A DNA stretch of 44,047 nt from a virus. The translations under genes were made by a program, and so were the position numbers. Under the pieces are notes generated by a model. It was not told the origin of the DNA and made no database searches. It worked only from the letters and a program-made list of their open reading frames with translations. The stretch is taken from IMG/VR virus record IMGVR_UViG_3300045141_000167, positions 1 to 44,047 of that record. One strand, 5' to 3'. Positions 2,528 to 37,705 of this stretch are shown in pieces. Every line of letters starts with the position of its first letter. The stretch's first letter is position 1.

Positions 2528-3081
2528 CAGGCAGCTTTCCTATCGCGAGGAATTATTGTCTCGAATAACTGACAATGCTTTCCTCCAATAAGTATCTCAG
2601 ACGTTCCAATCCGGCGCATAATTCCATGTTTCATACACGCCTCATAAGCTTTACGATGCTCCGGAAGTGCGGCCCCCATGAATCCAAAATCATGCCTTGC
2701 TGCATTGAAAAATCCCACCGTGCATTCTATGATGTTTCTCTTAGATGCCCACGGCATCCATGAGATATTGAGAACCATCAAACATGAATTTCCTGGACCC
2801 CATGCCGCCAAAACCAGACCAACAGGAATAATTCCTTTTTTCGTTCCAGCGGACAGAGTCCATGCCGCATGGCACTTGCTGACGATGAACGTCTGAAACT
2901 CCGTCTTAAATTCTTCCGGCGACAGACCAGATTTGAGCCAATCAAACGCTGCGTGCTTGTACGCGGCCCAGGCGTATTTCACGTCCTCATCTTCTATCGG
3001 TCGGTAGTAAATCGTTCGCTTGAGCGTTCGCCGCAGCCGCCATTTACGAGGAGGCTGCGCGGAATCGGAGTCCGATTTCAT
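2527..3081 (-). CDS. Internal virion protein, acetyltransferase-like fold possible, 184 aa
   Basis: A basic N-terminus (residues 10-27) is followed by a compact domain. The middle part has an alternating hydrophobic pattern, then FFNAARHDFGFMG and LPEHRKAYEACMKHG, which resemble the distant GNAT-like proteins found among phage internal virion genes. I cannot point to a clear acetyl-CoA binding loop, so activity is uncertain. The start overlaps the end of the stopper gene by 38 nt. An alternative reading is a purely structural protein. Confidence 0.6.
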   Translation of the reverse strand: MKSDSDSAQPPRKWRLRRTLKRTIYYRPIEDEDVKYAWAAYKHAAFDWLKSGLSPEEFKTEFQTFIVSKCHAAWTLSAGTKKGIIPVGLVLAAWGPGNSCLMVLNISWMPWASKRNIIECTVGFFNAARHDFGFMGAALPEHRKAYEACMKHGIMRRIGTSEILIGGKHCQLFETIIPRDRKAA

Positions 3082-4666
3082 TGATTGAAAAGTTGTTATT
3101 GCCTATGACCTCGACCAACAATTGAAACTCGTTGTCGTGGCCGGGAATGTTGATTTTGTTGCGTGTCATCTTCCCCGATATTTGATTCCATCCAATTCCG
3201 CTATTCCAGTACGATCCCGCGCCGCTCCAATAATGGCCAGCCGCTGCCGCCGCCAGCGTAGTTGTTAGAGACTGGTTGAATATGTTTTCGCCCTGATACT
3301 GGAATGTCAGTGTCAGCGTGCTCGAAGTCTGCTGCTGACCATATTTAACATAACCTTCCACATCATAAGCCTTAGAATCCAGTCGAGAAGAAATAAGCTT
3401 AGACAGAAATTGCGTGTCAATGGTGCTCGTTCCACCATCACCCGCCGCTCCCTTTCCTTCCATCCGATATATGTTGCCAGCAGAATCCCCCATGAAAATA
3501 TATTCCAGCCCGTCCACAGGATCGAGCATCGACATAACCATAGTCGGTCGAAACGCCATGCTGTGACTGGTTGTCCAGCGCATCCATGGACTCAAAGATC
3601 CCTGTCCACCAAGCTCTCCGCTGTCGCGGATGGCAACATCGAGAACCCAGACCTCGGAAACTCCGGAGGGGAAGCAATAGGCTTTCCGAGTTCTAGAATT
3701 GAAAACGATCGTCCAGCCCGGATAGGTGCCGACAACATCGGCCACGATAGCGGTTAGGTCATCTGCCTCGGAATTACCGTAAGTGTTGGTATCCCGCACG
3801 CTCTCAATGCGACCGGGGCGGCCATATATAAAATCCGTCCCTATCTCGGCAATCGACTCCGCGCCGGACGCTGACGAATTGGCATAGAACGTGCTGAACG
3901 CAAAGTTGGTCGAATCCGTACCCGTTAGCCCGAATATCTCTCCACGCTCGCTAGAGAGCATAGTGCCAAGATACGTCACCAGATAGCCGTTGATTGGCTT
4001 GAGATCCGGCGTCAGCAGAAAAAACGGATCGCCAGCACCCAAGGAATTCGACGGCCGGTTTACGATGGTGATGGTGGTAAAATCGCTACGCTTGGCGCCG
4101 ACAATGAGGTGCGGCGTTGCGATTCCAGAAAACACATTGGCGAATATCGCTCGCTCGGTTTGAACACTACAATAGCGCGCCAGGAACGTTCCGAACGGAT
4201 TGCCGGCCTGATCGGTAAACGTCACCGTGGAGAATGTCGTACCGTCCCACTGGTAGACAGGATCAACTAGGTTTAGGTCAGTAATGATAACCCTGTCCGT
4301 CAAATTCCAGACATGGGTTCTCCAGTGTCCGCGCAACTGGCACGTCGCGCTGCAGCTCCCCTTGCTGGTGAAGGTCGAATGACCATCCCACTGATAGACC
4401 GTGTTACCGGCCTGAAACAGCGTCGTAACCGTTCCGTCAGTCTTTAAGAGACTTGCCCCGCCGCGAACGGCCGCAGCATTAGGCACGGTGCCGACCAGAT
4501 CGAACGGCGGGCGATTGCGCAGGTTGCGGTTCTGAATGTCGATTAGAAAGTTAAACCCGCCTGCAGATTCCCGTCCGTCTATCTCATCCGGCGAGGCTCG
4601 AGTATGCAAACCTCCGCCGAACTTGAGAATTACGTTCTGTTCCTCGGGGCCTATCTTTTGAACCAT
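3044..4666 (-). CDS. Tail/neck structural protein (stopper or needle-type), 540 aa
   Basis: This 540-aa beta-rich protein starts MVQKIGPEEQNVILKFGGGL and contains repeated Tyr-Gln-Trp-Asp and Gly-rich strands (for example TVYQWDG and PVYQWDG near residues 90 and 138). The order coat, SAP protein, adaptor, then this protein matches the head-closure (stopper) or tail-tube proteins of P22-like genomes. Its ATG overlaps the stop of the adaptor at 4666. Virion assignment is fairly sure; the exact position in the tail is inferred. Confidence 0.72.
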   Translation of the reverse strand: MVQKIGPEEQNVILKFGGGLHTRASPDEIDGRESAGGFNFLIDIQNRNLRNRPPFDLVGTVPNAAAVRGGASLLKTDGTVTTLFQAGNTVYQWDGHSTFTSKGSCSATCQLRGHWRTHVWNLTDRVIITDLNLVDPVYQWDGTTFSTVTFTDQAGNPFGTFLARYCSVQTERAIFANVFSGIATPHLIVGAKRSDFTTITIVNRPSNSLGAGDPFFLLTPDLKPINGYLVTYLGTMLSSERGEIFGLTGTDSTNFAFSTFYANSSASGAESIAEIGTDFIYGRPGRIESVRDTNTYGNSEADDLTAIVADVVGTYPGWTIVFNSRTRKAYCFPSGVSEVWVLDVAIRDSGELGGQGSLSPWMRWTTSHSMAFRPTMVMSMLDPVDGLEYIFMGDSAGNIYRMEGKGAAGDGGTSTIDTQFLSKLISSRLDSKAYDVEGYVKYGQQQTSSTLTLTFQYQGENIFNQSLTTTLAAAAAGHYWSGAGSYWNSGIGWNQISGKMTRNKINIPGHDNEFQLLVEVIGNNNFSINEIGLRFRAASS

Positions 4667-5334
4667 CAGCCCCTCGGAGAGTAGTTTTCCCGCATTTTTT
4701 CTTCTGTGACAAACCGAGAGGCCCGACCGATTGCCTGCATGAATAACGCTTGGTCGAACTCGTTACGCATTTCCCGCTTGTAGAGCTGCACCCAGCACGG
4801 AACCATGGCGCGGAACGTGGCATCATTGAACGGAACCAGATCGGTTGCGTTCACCAGCGCGAGGTTCTTTTCATATTGGTAGGTGTAAGTTCGGCCGTTT
4901 GATGCGGAGTCAGGAGCCCGGTCTAGCCGCAGTTTTCCGTTAATAGGGCTAATTACCCCCCATGTTGGAAGTCCGGTGTTTGTCTGCTGCGGGTCGAGAA
5001 GAAGAAGAGCGTTATAACCTTCCGTATATTCAAATAGATATTGACTGTTGGGTTTGTCGATCATTTCCCAAATCAGTGTTACGAGGTCCGCAGCTAAGGA
5101 GTATTCCCGAATTCCCGTTGCTAGCGTAATCGTGCTTTCCGCCTGTTCGTTCGGCAGCGACTTGTTAGAGGACGAATAGAGTTCGTCAATCCCCTCGTTC
5201 GTCACCTGTACGGCAATATCAATATTATGCTGGATCGAGGAACTAGTGAGAGACGCAAGCAATCCGGCATTTCCCGCAATGACGTTGACTCGTTTTAAGG
5301 TTTCGTTGACCGCATCCAATAACGTGTGTGCCAT
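4666..5334 (-). CDS. Head-to-tail adaptor protein, 222 aa
   Basis: The all-alpha N-terminus (MAHTLLDAVNETLKRVNVIA) with a Glu-Leu-Tyr segment near residue 50, a central beta region, and a C-terminal helical part is typical of connector (adaptor) proteins that bind under the portal of short-tailed phages. It lies directly after the coat module and ends on the start of the stopper. The stop-start overlap (TGATG type) implies coupled translation. Confidence 0.72.
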   Translation of the reverse strand: MAHTLLDAVNETLKRVNVIAGNAGLLASLTSSSIQHNIDIAVQVTNEGIDELYSSSNKSLPNEQAESTITLATGIREYSLAADLVTLIWEMIDKPNSQYLFEYTEGYNALLLLDPQQTNTGLPTWGVISPINGKLRLDRAPDSASNGRTYTYQYEKNLALVNATDLVPFNDATFRAMVPCWVQLYKREMRNEFDQALFMQAIGRASRFVTEEKMRENYSPRG

Positions 5335-30776: not shown

Positions 30777-30890
30777 TCACACCTTTCGGACCGGGACTGC
30801 ATCGTTGTCAGGCCCCACGATGATGCACCGCACCGGATGACTCGCCGTTGCAACCGCGATCATTCCGTCACGCTTCACAAAATTGGTCAT
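30777..30890 (-). CDS. Small protein, 37 aa
   Basis: The ATG at 30890 overlaps the GcrA-like stop (ATGA). The product MTNFVKRDGMIAVATASHPV is beta-like with a CIIVGPDND segment. Support comes from the overlap and the absence of other genes in this gap. Confidence 0.45.
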   Translation of the reverse strand: MTNFVKRDGMIAVATASHPVRCIIVGPDNDAVPVRKV

Positions 30891-31381
30891 GCCACTTGCG
30901 CCTTACGATCTCGGGCAAACTTGCGCTGATACAGCTCGAGTTCGGCGCGGGTACGCACGGGAATGTAGTTAAACGCCTTGCAGCAGTGATGTGCGCAGTA
31001 GGAATGCCTGCGCAGCGTTACATCGCCGCAGAACAGCATTTGGATGCCTTCATTAGCCACGGGCCACCGGCACTGATTGAGCTTGAGATCGAATATTCCG
31101 GTCGGGTTTTCGATGTGCTCGGGTTCAATTTCCGTCGCCATTTTTCCGTGCGTTGGCGGCTTTTGGCCGTACACGGCATATTTTCGTTTTGGCTTGTATC
31201 GCCGTGTCGGCCGTCCTGGGAATTGTACAAATTTAGATCTGAGCCCGATCCGATGCTGCTTGCCGATTATGGCGTTACGGGAAACGCCTATGATGTTGCC
31301 GATTTGCGAGCATGACAGCCTCTGCACGGTAAGCTCTGTCAGCAATTGCACTGCCGCATCGTCCCAGTTAAAGCCGGTCAT
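30887..31381 (-). CDS. GcrA-like cell-cycle regulator, 164 aa
   Basis: Starting at the ATG that overlaps the resolvase stop (ATGA, 31381), the protein has the GcrA N-terminal DNA-binding region (FNWDDAAVQLLTELTVQRLS, then SQIGNIIGVSRNAIIGKQHR) and a C-terminal Cys/His-rich motif (CRWPV, LFCG, HSYCAHHCCKAFN) like that of GcrA. GcrA in Alphaproteobacteria works with CcrM methylation and sigma70 to control cell-cycle genes. A phage copy may redirect host transcription or serve the late operon. Confidence 0.88.
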   Translation of the reverse strand: MTGFNWDDAAVQLLTELTVQRLSCSQIGNIIGVSRNAIIGKQHRIGLRSKFVQFPGRPTRRYKPKRKYAVYGQKPPTHGKMATEIEPEHIENPTGIFDLKLNQCRWPVANEGIQMLFCGDVTLRRHSYCAHHCCKAFNYIPVRTRAELELYQRKFARDRKAQVA

Positions 31382-31773
31382 GCGATTGGCCTCACTGTCA
31401 CGCGGGAGCCCTGCGGCGCCCAGCCCCATTCGACGGTGATCCGCCGCATGTGCTTAGGGCTATCGTCCACAATGACCTCGATGCGTCTCAGATAATCTAT
31501 GAGGAATTTCAATGAGTTATCTAGGTCTATGCGGGTGTGGTATTTGGATAAAACAATCAAAAGCTCGAATTTATCAATGCGTTTGCCGACGATGCGTTTC
31601 GGCCCCGACAGCATCAGCGCATCGGCACCCTGCATCCAATTTTTAAGTTTAGCTTGAGCCCGCCAGTCGATCTTGCGCGTGCGGTTGACCGAGGGCGGTG
31701 GTGGTAGGTCAATTGTGATATCGGGTGGAGCTCCGAACGGCGGGTCGGCAAAACTTGGCGCGCAAAAGCCCAT
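31378..31773 (-). CDS. rusA: RusA-like Holliday junction resolvase, 131 aa
   Basis: The ATG at 31773 has a GGAGGG SD six bases upstream; a longer frame from 31809 lacks one. The signature RIDLDNSLKFLIDYL...VIVDDS at residues 81-105 has the aspartates (83, 85, 103, 104) of RusA family endodeoxyribonucleases. It resolves recombination intermediates before packaging. It begins the leftward run after the HTH gene. Confidence 0.85.
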   Translation of the reverse strand: MGFCAPSFADPPFGAPPDITIDLPPPPSVNRTRKIDWRAQAKLKNWMQGADALMLSGPKRIVGKRIDKFELLIVLSKYHTRIDLDNSLKFLIDYLRRIEVIVDDSPKHMRRITVEWGWAPQGSRVTVRPIA

Positions 31774-35675: not shown

Positions 35676-35693
35676 CGCGAGCAAGGAGGGGAA

Positions 35694-35879
35694 ATGAGCG
35701 CGCAACTGTCTTGGATTATGAAAACGCGAGAACTGGAAGCCGAGATCGCCAAGCTGCGCGCTGCGCTTGAGGAACTTATCAGTGCAATTCAAGAGGATTG
35801 CGACGTGGTAGAACATCATTGGTTATATGAACAGGTGGAGAAGGCTCGCACGGCCCTCGCCAATGAGCAGGAGGGATAA
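35694..35879 (+). CDS. Coiled-coil cassette protein 1, 61 aa
   Basis: Behind AAGGAGGGG, the product MSAQLSWIMKTRELEAEIAK carries LEAEIAKLRAALEEL and ends ALANEQEG. The coiled-coil core and the tail recur in the neighbours, so these genes form a paralogous series. Function unknown. Confidence 0.7.
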   Translation: MSAQLSWIMKTRELEAEIAKLRAALEELISAIQEDCDVVEHHWLYEQVEKARTALANEQEG

Positions 35880-35883
35880 ACGA

Positions 35884-35991
35884 ATGGCGTGGGGTTACCC
35901 CGAATCTGCGCCCGAGGGTAGGGTTGGGATTAAATCGGGCTATCAGCAAACCCCTAGGCCCCACGTCGCCAATGAGCAGGAGGGGAAATGA
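35884..35991 (+). CDS. Cassette protein 2, 35 aa
   Basis: It reads MAWGYPESAPEGRVGIKSGY and ends VANEQEGK on a junction repeat. Compositionally unlike its neighbours. It may be real or simply an open frame into the repeat. Confidence 0.45.
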   Translation: MAWGYPESAPEGRVGIKSGYQQTPRPHVANEQEGK

Positions 35992-36311
35992 ACTTCGACA
36001 TGTACGAAAATAGGATTATTGATTTAAAGGCCGAAGTCACCAGATTGCGGGATCTCGAGGCGGCTACTTCGACGCGTTTGGAAAAAGCAGATGCTGATAA
36101 CGCCAGATTGCAAAGTGAAGTAAATTGTGCCCAAGCCGTCTTTGATAGCTACGCCAAGGAACACCAGCAATTCAGCGACCGCATAGACAGATTGCGCGCG
36201 GCGCTTGAGGAAATAAACCAACACCGAATGTTTATACCCGAAAAACAGGCTTACGTGGAATTGAAAGAAATAGCCAGAAAGGCCCTCGCCAATGAGCAGG
36301 AGACAAAATGA
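35988..36311 (+). CDS. Coiled-coil cassette protein 3, 107 aa
   Basis: It begins MNFDMYENRIIDLKAEVTRL and has a long heptad-like helix with IDRLRAALEEI near residue 66, ending ALANEQETK. Start and end are both ATGA-type overlaps. Confidence 0.7.
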   Translation: MNFDMYENRIIDLKAEVTRLRDLEAATSTRLEKADADNARLQSEVNCAQAVFDSYAKEHQQFSDRIDRLRAALEEINQHRMFIPEKQAYVELKEIARKALANEQETK

Positions 36312-36382
36312 TCATCGCTGGTATTGTAATTGGACTTTTGGCGGTGGTTGTTTGGATATGGCTATACCCCAATCTAACGTAA
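36308..36382 (+). CDS. One-helix membrane peptide, 24 aa
   Basis: MIIAGIVIGLLAVVVWIWLY followed by PNLT. The start overlaps the previous stop behind a GAGCAGGAG SD. Confidence 0.5.
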   Translation: MIIAGIVIGLLAVVVWIWLYPNLT

Positions 36383-36419
36383 ACAAAAATGGTCGCTAAC
36401 CCCAATAAGGACTAGAAAA

Positions 36420-36620
36420 ATGGTCATATTGGAAAGACATCCTGACAACATGGCTGTCCTGTACGGCAGCACCAATGAGGAATGGATCGTTTTGCCATAC
36501 TGGCCTTGCAGCGGCGCTACCGTTCGTAAAATTGCACCAGATAAGCTTCCGCGCACATGGATAGATGAATGCGCGATATTTGCAGATAAGGCCGTCGCCA
36601 ATGAGCAGGAGGAGAAATGA
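36420..36620 (+). CDS. Cassette protein 4, 66 aa
   Basis: It begins MVILERHPDNMAVLYGSTNE, a compact beta-like domain with WIVLPYWPC, and ends AVANEQEEK. Not a coiled coil. Function unknown. Confidence 0.65.
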   Translation: MVILERHPDNMAVLYGSTNEEWIVLPYWPCSGATVRKIAPDKLPRTWIDECAIFADKAVANEQEEK

Positions 36621-36832
36621 TGGAGCAAAAACTATTCGATGTGGCTCATTGGTGGGGACATGCGCGGTGTGCCGATGGTCGTATCATGGCGCATCATCCG
36701 CAATCGGACGATCCCGATCATGAGGTTGACGTAGGCCAATGCCCAAACTTTGAAATGGGTACTGGCTGTTGCGAACAATGCAAGGGGGAAGCACTTGGAC
36801 TCGCCCTCGCCAATGAGCAGGAGGGGAAATGA
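36617..36832 (+). CDS. Cassette protein 5, Cys/His-rich, 71 aa
   Basis: It reads MMEQKLFDVAHWWGHARCAD; five cysteines (including CCEQC) and five histidines suggest a metal site. It ends ALANEQEGK. Coupled to both neighbours. Confidence 0.65.
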   Translation: MMEQKLFDVAHWWGHARCADGRIMAHHPQSDDPDHEVDVGQCPNFEMGTGCCEQCKGEALGLALANEQEGK

Positions 36833-37035
36833 GCGACTATAGCAAAGTTCCACACCTCATCGACTATGTGCCGCAGCTTGAGGCCGAAATCGCCAAGCTG
36901 CGCGCTGCGCTTGAGCCGTTGAGCACCCAAGCAAAGAACTTTGCTGGTTTCGATAAGAGTGCTGCTGTTTCAGTCCCGGTTACGGTCGGGGAATTACGCC
37001 ACGCAGCCGCCCTTGCTAATGAGGCGGGGGAATGA
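36829..37035 (+). CDS. Coiled-coil cassette protein 6, 68 aa
   Basis: It contains LEAEIAKLRAALEPLSTQAK (residues 17-36), almost identical to the core of cassette protein 1, and ends AALANEAGE on a degenerate junction repeat. Confidence 0.68.
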   Translation: MSDYSKVPHLIDYVPQLEAEIAKLRAALEPLSTQAKNFAGFDKSAAVSVPVTVGELRHAAALANEAGE

Positions 37036-37286
37036 TCAAGGGACTTAGCACCATTCAGAAACTTCGCATGTACCCTGGCTACCACGGCGCCATCGAGGAT
37101 GCCGTAGCCGAAATCGAGCGGCTGCGCGCGGAGAACATTAAGCTACGCGCGTCGCTTGAGGGCGCGAGATCGCTAAACGTGGCCATCTATACGCTTGAAC
37201 CGCTGAGCGAGGAAAGCAAGAATCTATTGCTTGAGGAACGCGATTCAATCGATGCCGCCCTCGCCAATGAGCAGGGGGAGAAATAA
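37032..37286 (+). CDS. Coiled-coil cassette protein 7, 84 aa
   Basis: MIKGLSTIQKLRMYPGYHGA, then VAEIERLRAENIKLRASLEG and TLEPLSEESKNLLLEERD, ending ALANEQGEK. The LEPLS..(A/S)KN segment is shared with cassette protein 6. Confidence 0.68.
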   Translation: MIKGLSTIQKLRMYPGYHGAIEDAVAEIERLRAENIKLRASLEGARSLNVAIYTLEPLSEESKNLLLEERDSIDAALANEQGEK

Positions 37287-37289
37287 CCG

Positions 37290-37373
37290 ATGACCGCGAT
37301 GGGATGGGCTGCTGTTCTGTTGGTTGTGTTGGTTTTGGTGGCTTACTGCGTGTGGGGATGGTTGGTTAGCTGA
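37290..37373 (+). CDS. One-helix membrane peptide, 27 aa
   Basis: MTAMGWAAVLLVVLVLVAYC followed by VWGWLVS. The SD is the upstream junction repeat (GCAGGGGGAG). Confidence 0.52.
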   Translation: MTAMGWAAVLLVVLVLVAYCVWGWLVS

Positions 37374-37387
37374 GAGCAGGAGGGAAA

Positions 37388-37705
37388 ATGAGCGGTGGAG
37401 AGTATCGTACTTTGATGAGCGGTGCAGAGTATCGTACTTTGCTTGTAAAGCTAAACAATGAACTCGCAGATAAGGACATAGAGATCGCCAAGCTGCGCGA
37501 TGAGAACAAACAATTAGTAAACGATCACCACCGACTGTATGGCGCAGCACTCATAAAGGTAGATAAGCTGTGCTCGTCGCTTGAGAAAATTAAAAGAGTG
37601 ACGGACTTCGCGTCCTTTCACGGTCATTTAATGGAGGGAAGCGATGCAGCTCACAGGGCGCATGAGATCAGTTGCGACACCCTCGCCTCGCTTGGCATCC
37701 GGTGA
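37388..37705 (+). CDS. Coiled-coil cassette protein 8 with duplicated start, 105 aa
   Basis: The first 27 nt (encoding MSGGEYRTL) are repeated with one change (MSGAEYRTL), so two ATG starts exist at 37388 and 37415. EIAKLRDENKQL lies near residue 34. The last plus-strand gene; its end meets the leftward lysis-side genes. Confidence 0.68.
   Translation: MSGGEYRTLMSGAEYRTLLVKLNNELADKDIEIAKLRDENKQLVNDHHRLYGAALIKVDKLCSSLEKIKRVTDFASFHGHLMEGSDAAHRAHEISCDTLASLGIR

Follow-up and report, generated by a model that had tools for sequence, protein, structure and literature searches.

Downstream of a gene for an AlpA-like excisionase, the window (the whole stretch of DNA analysed, a viral record of 44,047 bases) carries a row of ten small plus-strand genes. 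These array genes are separated by near-identical copies of a 26-letter sequence, the joint element, and each copy supplies the SD of the following gene, most of them its start as well. A GcrA-like cell-cycle regulator gene is found elsewhere in the record (30887-31429, minus strand), and, given that such a protein is encoded, the host is probably an alphaproteobacterium.

The array and its joint element

The ten genes of the array are as follows:

g1, 35694..35879, plus strand: small coiled-coil (LEAEIAKLRAALE) protein of 61 aa, C-terminus ALANEQEG
g2, 35884..35991, plus strand: protein of 35 aa, C-terminus HVANEQEGK
g3, 35988..36311, plus strand: coiled-coil protein of 107 aa (RLRAALEEI..EIARKALANEQETK)
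g4, 36308..36382, plus strand: single-TM peptide of 24 aa, ATGA-coupled to g3
g5, 36420..36620, plus strand: orphan of 66 aa, C-terminus KAVANEQEEK
g6, 36617..36832, plus strand: Cys-rich protein of 71 aa, C-terminus ALANEQEGK
g7, 36829..37035, plus strand: coiled-coil protein of 68 aa, degenerate tail ALANEAGE
g8, 37032..37286, plus strand: coiled-coil protein of 84 aa, C-terminus ALANEQGEK
g9, 37290..37373, plus strand: single-TM peptide of 27 aa, without the tail
g10, 37388..37705, plus strand: coiled-coil protein of 105 aa, the final gene of the array, without the tail

A Pfam search of the array proteins returned no convincing domain, nor did the surroundings of the array yield a strand-annealing recombinase. 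No relative of g2 was found, and this gene is possibly a decayed cassette. The 5' end of g10 (37388-37441) consists of a 27-base tandem duplication with one mismatch, read as MSGGEYRTL MSGAEYRTL.

The copies of the joint element, all on the plus strand, are distributed along the array in the following manner:

35857..35882, plus strand: copy 1, stop TAA, next ATG 4 nt downstream
35966..35991, plus strand: copy 2, ATGA overlap (start of g3)
36286..36311, plus strand: copy 3, ATGA overlap (start of g4)
36595..36620, plus strand: copy 4, ATGA overlap (start of g6)
36807..36832, plus strand: copy 5, ATGA overlap (start of g7)
37261..37286, plus strand: copy 6, stop TAA, next ATG 3 nt downstream
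37009..37035, plus strand: degenerate copy, coding, ATGA overlap (start of g8)
37374..37391, plus strand: degenerate copy, SD half only, untranslated, after the TGA of g9
35679..35697, plus strand: degenerate copy, SD half only, at the head of the array, untranslated, with an in-frame TAA and no upstream start

When the window was searched with the 17-mer CGCCAATGAGCAGGAGG at up to 3 mismatches, seven matches were obtained, against a mean of 0.22 and a maximum of 2 in shuffled sequences. Six of these lie at 35858-37278 (four exact and two with one mismatch), while the seventh (19924, 3 mismatches) is probably fortuitous; the core TCGCCAATGAGCAGG is present six times, at 35857-37286. The six near-identical copies described by the initial annotation are thus borne out, and degenerate copies are present as it had stated (at 35679, 37009 and 37374), but two of these three are non-coding and retain only the SD half. 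The same holds in part for its claim that every copy unites a tail, an SD and a coupled AUGA, given that the tail and the SD are found whereas the ATGA occurs in only four of the six clean copies, the other two having TAA. Overlaps of the ATGA type with the SD inside the upstream gene are seen at g2/g3, g3/g4, g5/g6, g6/g7 and g7/g8, and the element-bearing junctions have intergenic gaps of -4 to +14. Full or partial copies precede nine of the ten array starts, and no recognisable copy lies upstream of the start of g5 (36420).

One explanation of these copies would be that similar optimal SD-start sequences arose independently at each junction, simply as strong ribosome-binding sites, as might be read from the two sites at which the SD half AGGAGGGGAAATGAGC stands alone. 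This is hardly credible, given that the TCGCCAATGAGC half lies outside the SD and that the matches far outnumber those in shuffles; the upstream half already refutes it.

Conservation of the DNA and the shared tail

At the C-terminus of the upstream gene the joint reads as (A)(L/V)ANEQ-x-x-K, the individual tails being ALANEQEG, HVANEQEGK, ALANEQETK, AVANEQEEK, ALANEQEGK, ALANEAGE (degenerate) and ALANEQGEK. Once the tails are removed, g1, g3, g7, g8 and g10 share an LRAALE-type coiled-coil motif, and g2, g5 and g6 resemble neither this family nor each other at E<=0.01, so that more than one family carries the tail. Restriction of the repeat to a single gene family by common descent, which according to the initial annotation would have argued against a recombination seam, is therefore not what was observed.

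The QEGK portion is simply the SD read in the ATGA frame (CAG GAG GGG AAA TGA, i.e., Q-E-G-K-stop), and, among the phages at hand, Glu makes up 18% of the last five residues at SD-bearing ATGA overlaps, against 6%. At the DNA level, 15 consecutive nucleotides, TCGCCAATGAGCAGG, are invariant in eight clean copies aligned on AATGAGC, six from the window and two from a second viral genome (G001), and are followed on the 3' side by a looser RGRRRAAATGA that runs through the SD to the start. The information drops sharply on both sides of the block, where the flanks are near-random and unalignable. The A-N-E-Q codons show no synonymous change (p=1.5e-7 for six copies, under independent codon choice at the usage of the window), and, given that the synonymous sites are frozen, the conserved unit is the DNA or RNA rather than the peptide.

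These observations bear on the idea that ANEQEGK is a selected peptide, i.e., a degron or a localisation or interaction tag shared by several small proteins, an idea which draws on the occurrence of the tail on at least four body types. It appears very improbable, as the conserved codons lack synonymous change, the degenerate copies retain the DNA and not the peptide, and, in other phages, the corresponding joints are untranslated or are read in two frames. The tags added by tmRNA have a hydrophobic ...LAA end, and the charged ...EGK end is unlike it. Given the frozen synonymous sites and the different frames or untranslated state of joints in other phages, nothing was found in favour of a functional tail or degron.

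The conserved block reaches 12 nt upstream of the SD, and these nucleotides could constitute a functional signal. The main rival to the reading favoured below is a cis-acting RNA signal, in which the block before the SD would be the site of a phage or host regulator that sets the translation of all the small genes together, the copies being held identical by selection on the signal. Plain SD pairing leaves the 12 upstream nucleotides unexplained, the start-associated sequences (SAS) of cluster K have been discussed in similar terms, and full or partial copies stand before nine of the ten starts. The signal is nevertheless an unlikely explanation, considering that two degenerate copies retain the SD half only, that the RNA folding of the copies is no better than that of shuffles (z -0.7 to 0.7), and that a collinear relative (G007, below) uses an unrelated sequence at the locus, so that the regulator would have to change too. 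An SD-hiding hairpin (CCCUC/GAGGG) was also considered and rejected, as it forms in some copies and the shuffles are equally good.

Carriers, homologues and syntenic relatives

Besides the window, only one of the scanned viral contigs has the element at its gene joints, namely G001 (contig L130, IMGVR_UViG_3300046689_000729), where clean copies are located at 4426 and 4668 and a degenerate one at 4842, between genes other than those of the window. The two share one coiled-coil gene type, and G001 is a mosaic genome that has the tail module and one early gene in common with the window. The initial annotation had suggested searching related phages for conserved copies with differing content between them, and G001 has the element between other genes, without being collinear with the window. 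Given that the only other carrier is such a mosaic and not a close relative, vertical descent under strong selection may still account for the copies that the two genomes have in common.

A second, unrelated joint sequence, AATGAACGATG, stands before several unrelated genes of G001 (L130 3940-5072), and is also found in contig L162, at 2210-2226, before yet another gene. At L130 4399-4449, the ATG of this second joint abuts CTCGCCAATGAGCAGG, resulting in an ORF of nine codons, MLANEQEGK, as if two seams had come to touch after the loss of the gene between them.

Other searches for carriers were less productive. Among bacterial genomes, 41 contigs fit a loose version of the pattern, none of them with an array, and were treated as chance; the viral matches in L006-L010 and L081-L088 are single in-gene or unrelated occurrences. 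Terminase relatives are without the element, and the INPHARED phages gave no DNA match and no protein match to g5 or g6, the only hit being a weak one (E 0.8) for the coiled-coil protein of G001. Searches of IMG/VR with g6 and with the coiled-coil alignment yielded no confirmed relatives.

Homologues of the array genes that lack the tail are found in L162 (IMGVR_UViG_3300050821_010577), where the homologue of g6 came to light only when the coiled-coil motif was searched for as a DNA pattern. Over 40 aa, its identity to g6 is 62.5% (E 2e-16 in the local set). It lacks the tail and extends some 50 residues past the point where g6 turns into ALANEQEGK; the corresponding DNA shows 72% similarity over 97 bases, ending before the element. 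At 2897-3091, the same contig has a tail-less homologue of g3 and g1, which shares 28 identical bases across the coiled-coil motif and ends in EIARKALAR-TGA, an SD-like run coming next. The 3' end of this homologue, GAAATAGCCCGCAAGGCGCTCGCTAGGTGAGCAGAGAGA, aligns to the joint of g3 with a score of 23, against 13 for the best of 500 shuffles, and a one-base indel would turn its ALAR-stop into ALANEQE. As the tail-less 3' end of this g3 homologue aligns with the element, the tail looks like the read-out of an old stop and SD, and was presumably gained in the window rather than lost in L162.

In both g3 and g6, the homologues with and without the block thus switch at or near the block. The initial annotation had held that relatives with the same genes and no repeat would speak against a seam, and L162 does contain such homologues, yet their 3' ends differ from those of the window at the joint, which fits a seam.

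A second repeat at the DNA level, TGCGCGCKGCGCTTGAG, which encodes the LRAALE motif, occurs in the middle of the coiled-coil genes at 35755-35771, 36193-36209 and 36899-36915, and also at 37144 and 37569. The region of this motif includes 28 nt that are exact between g3 and L162, and G001 and L162 likewise share an exact run of 28 nt, in a different stretch.

The coiled-coil genes also raise the question of recent local duplication alone, through which one small gene and its start region would have been duplicated several times, the bodies then diverging quickly. The motif is present in five of the ten genes and is partly conserved in the DNA, as would be expected, but the bodies of g2, g5 and g6 are unrelated and g6 has a tail-less homologue elsewhere. 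Unalignable bodies beside 15 identical nucleotides would need selection or copying in any case, and this explanation is even less probable than the RNA signal.

To the left and right of the array, gene order is collinear between the window and the relative G007 (58% for Gp157, 44% for the excisionase and 63% for the right flank), which has three other small genes at the position of the array. G007 possesses a joint repeat of its own, GCGAGGACAGGATGARCG, in two copies (0.01 expected; L214 8466-8642, minus strand), once coding for a tail, QARTG, with an ATGA overlap and once after a TAG stop. The comparison of cassettes is thus divided between G001, which shares the copies and is not collinear, and G007, which is collinear and has another repeat; no pair of genomes was found that differs by one cassette between otherwise identical joints. 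In G011, GGAGGCGTCAGGNNAATGA occurs twice between the same flanking genes, giving the tails EASGE and EASGQ, and the start repeat of the syntenic interval is in slight excess (13, against up to 11 in the control), the pattern being rare by shuffles. The equivalent repeat of G003 was set aside as hardly above the control (13 against up to 12). In L158, which was chosen through another gene, the common bases of a two-copy joint are read in two different frames. Private start-associated repeats before several unrelated genes were also observed in L068, L060, L043 and L061, e.g., TTGAAGGGTAAT, CCTAAAACAGGAGAATA, ACCCAAAAGGAGATTTAGAG and CACACACGAAAGG.

Start modules as proposed cassette seams

Taken with the evidence above, the most probable reading, and one held with reasonable though not high confidence, is that copied translation-start modules serve as cassette seams and that the shared tail is most likely a by-product. 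The module would combine the SD and start of one gene with the final codons of the gene before it, an ancestral small coiled-coil gene, and the seams would be the copies at which unrelated small genes were joined, fused or lost. A one-base indel may have put the old TGA out of frame, in which case the upstream gene would read through the SD to the ATGA overlap, and the need of every downstream gene for its SD is proposed to have preserved the block. Translational coupling would be expected at the joints in vivo, and we infer that the cassettes were moved by recombination, homologous or not, at the joint. The recombination seam put forward by the initial annotation gains partial support from the unrelated bodies, G001, the g6 homologue of L162 and G007; a repeat of 15-26 nt is short for general recombination.

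Among known systems, the closest in position are the SAS of the cluster K mycobacteriophages, which have a 13-bp consensus, GGGATAGGAGCCC, in 11-19 copies per genome (PMC3203893, PMC12699233), and are non-coding and mostly located in gaps of >50 bp (PMC3203893). Both are short repeats with an SD core, placed in one orientation just upstream of starts, before genes of different families and limited to the non-structural part of the genome. On the other hand, the joint element does not match the SAS consensus at <=2 mismatches, lies inside the upstream gene with an ATGA overlap and gaps of -4 to +14 rather than in gaps of >50 bp, has six clean and three degenerate copies rather than 11-19, and belongs to a phage of alphaproteobacterial type. 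The initial description of the element as SAS-like, unrelated in sequence and coding therefore holds, with the position alike and the consensus and non-coding placement different.

Similarly, the boundary sequences proposed for phage mosaicism (PMC3029335) are short, conserved and found where genes meet, and homologous recombination could make use of them. The joint element resembles them in behaviour and is also short, conserved and located at gene borders, as a sharp block with unrelated flanks; boundary sequences have been described between genomes, whereas the joint element in addition has many copies within one genome and encodes a tail. The mobile regulatory PeSL cassettes of T4-type phages (Arbiol 2010 and Comeau 2014, as cited in PMC4503421) combine a promoter with a stem-loop, form repeated modules between small genes, as does the joint element, and are credited with cassette shuffling. 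The joint element differs from PeSL in being a translation start module. The array contains one promoter-like site (sigma-70-type scanned), against 2.1 in shuffles, and two terminator-like sites, against 2.6, none of them inside the elements, and the integron attC core sites GTTRRRY/RYYYAAC are absent from every copy.

Ordinary ATGA translational coupling involves an overlap of stop and start with the SD inside the upstream gene. The joint element has the same arrangement, but ordinary coupling lacks one repeated sequence across unrelated genes, and here there is one. Given these likenesses and differences, the element is filed as a coding, overlap-embedded and lineage-private form of the start-associated or boundary sequences.

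A census of exact repeats (k>=13, in register with a start, with unrelated flanks) found start-associated repeats in 15 of 107 viral contigs, a set that includes the window and G001, against 2, 1, 3 and 0 when four control offsets were used (Fisher test 2.6e-7; 4e-5 once near-identical contigs had been merged), and in one of 41 bacterial contigs. In another set of contigs, selected differently, the figures were five of 52 against four of 208 controls (p=0.018). The counts are rough, given that each open frame was taken to start at its first ATG, and they suggest that private joint repeats are common enough for a systematic survey.

A wider generalisation is tentative and, on balance, doubtful: in many phages, arrays of tiny non-structural genes may arise through the copying of a single start joint private to the lineage. 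The sequence of this joint, rather than the function of the genes, would define a local exchange system for orphans, with tails as a side effect, and the joint would be replaced wholesale between relatives. Tiny orphans in fast-changing arrays account for most of the phage genes whose function is unknown, and what is at issue is how they can be gained and lost without breaking translation. If the joint brings the next gene's start signal with it, any small gene could be dropped in already translatable, and the joint model predicts spurious common C-terminal tails, which annotators may mistake for protein domains.
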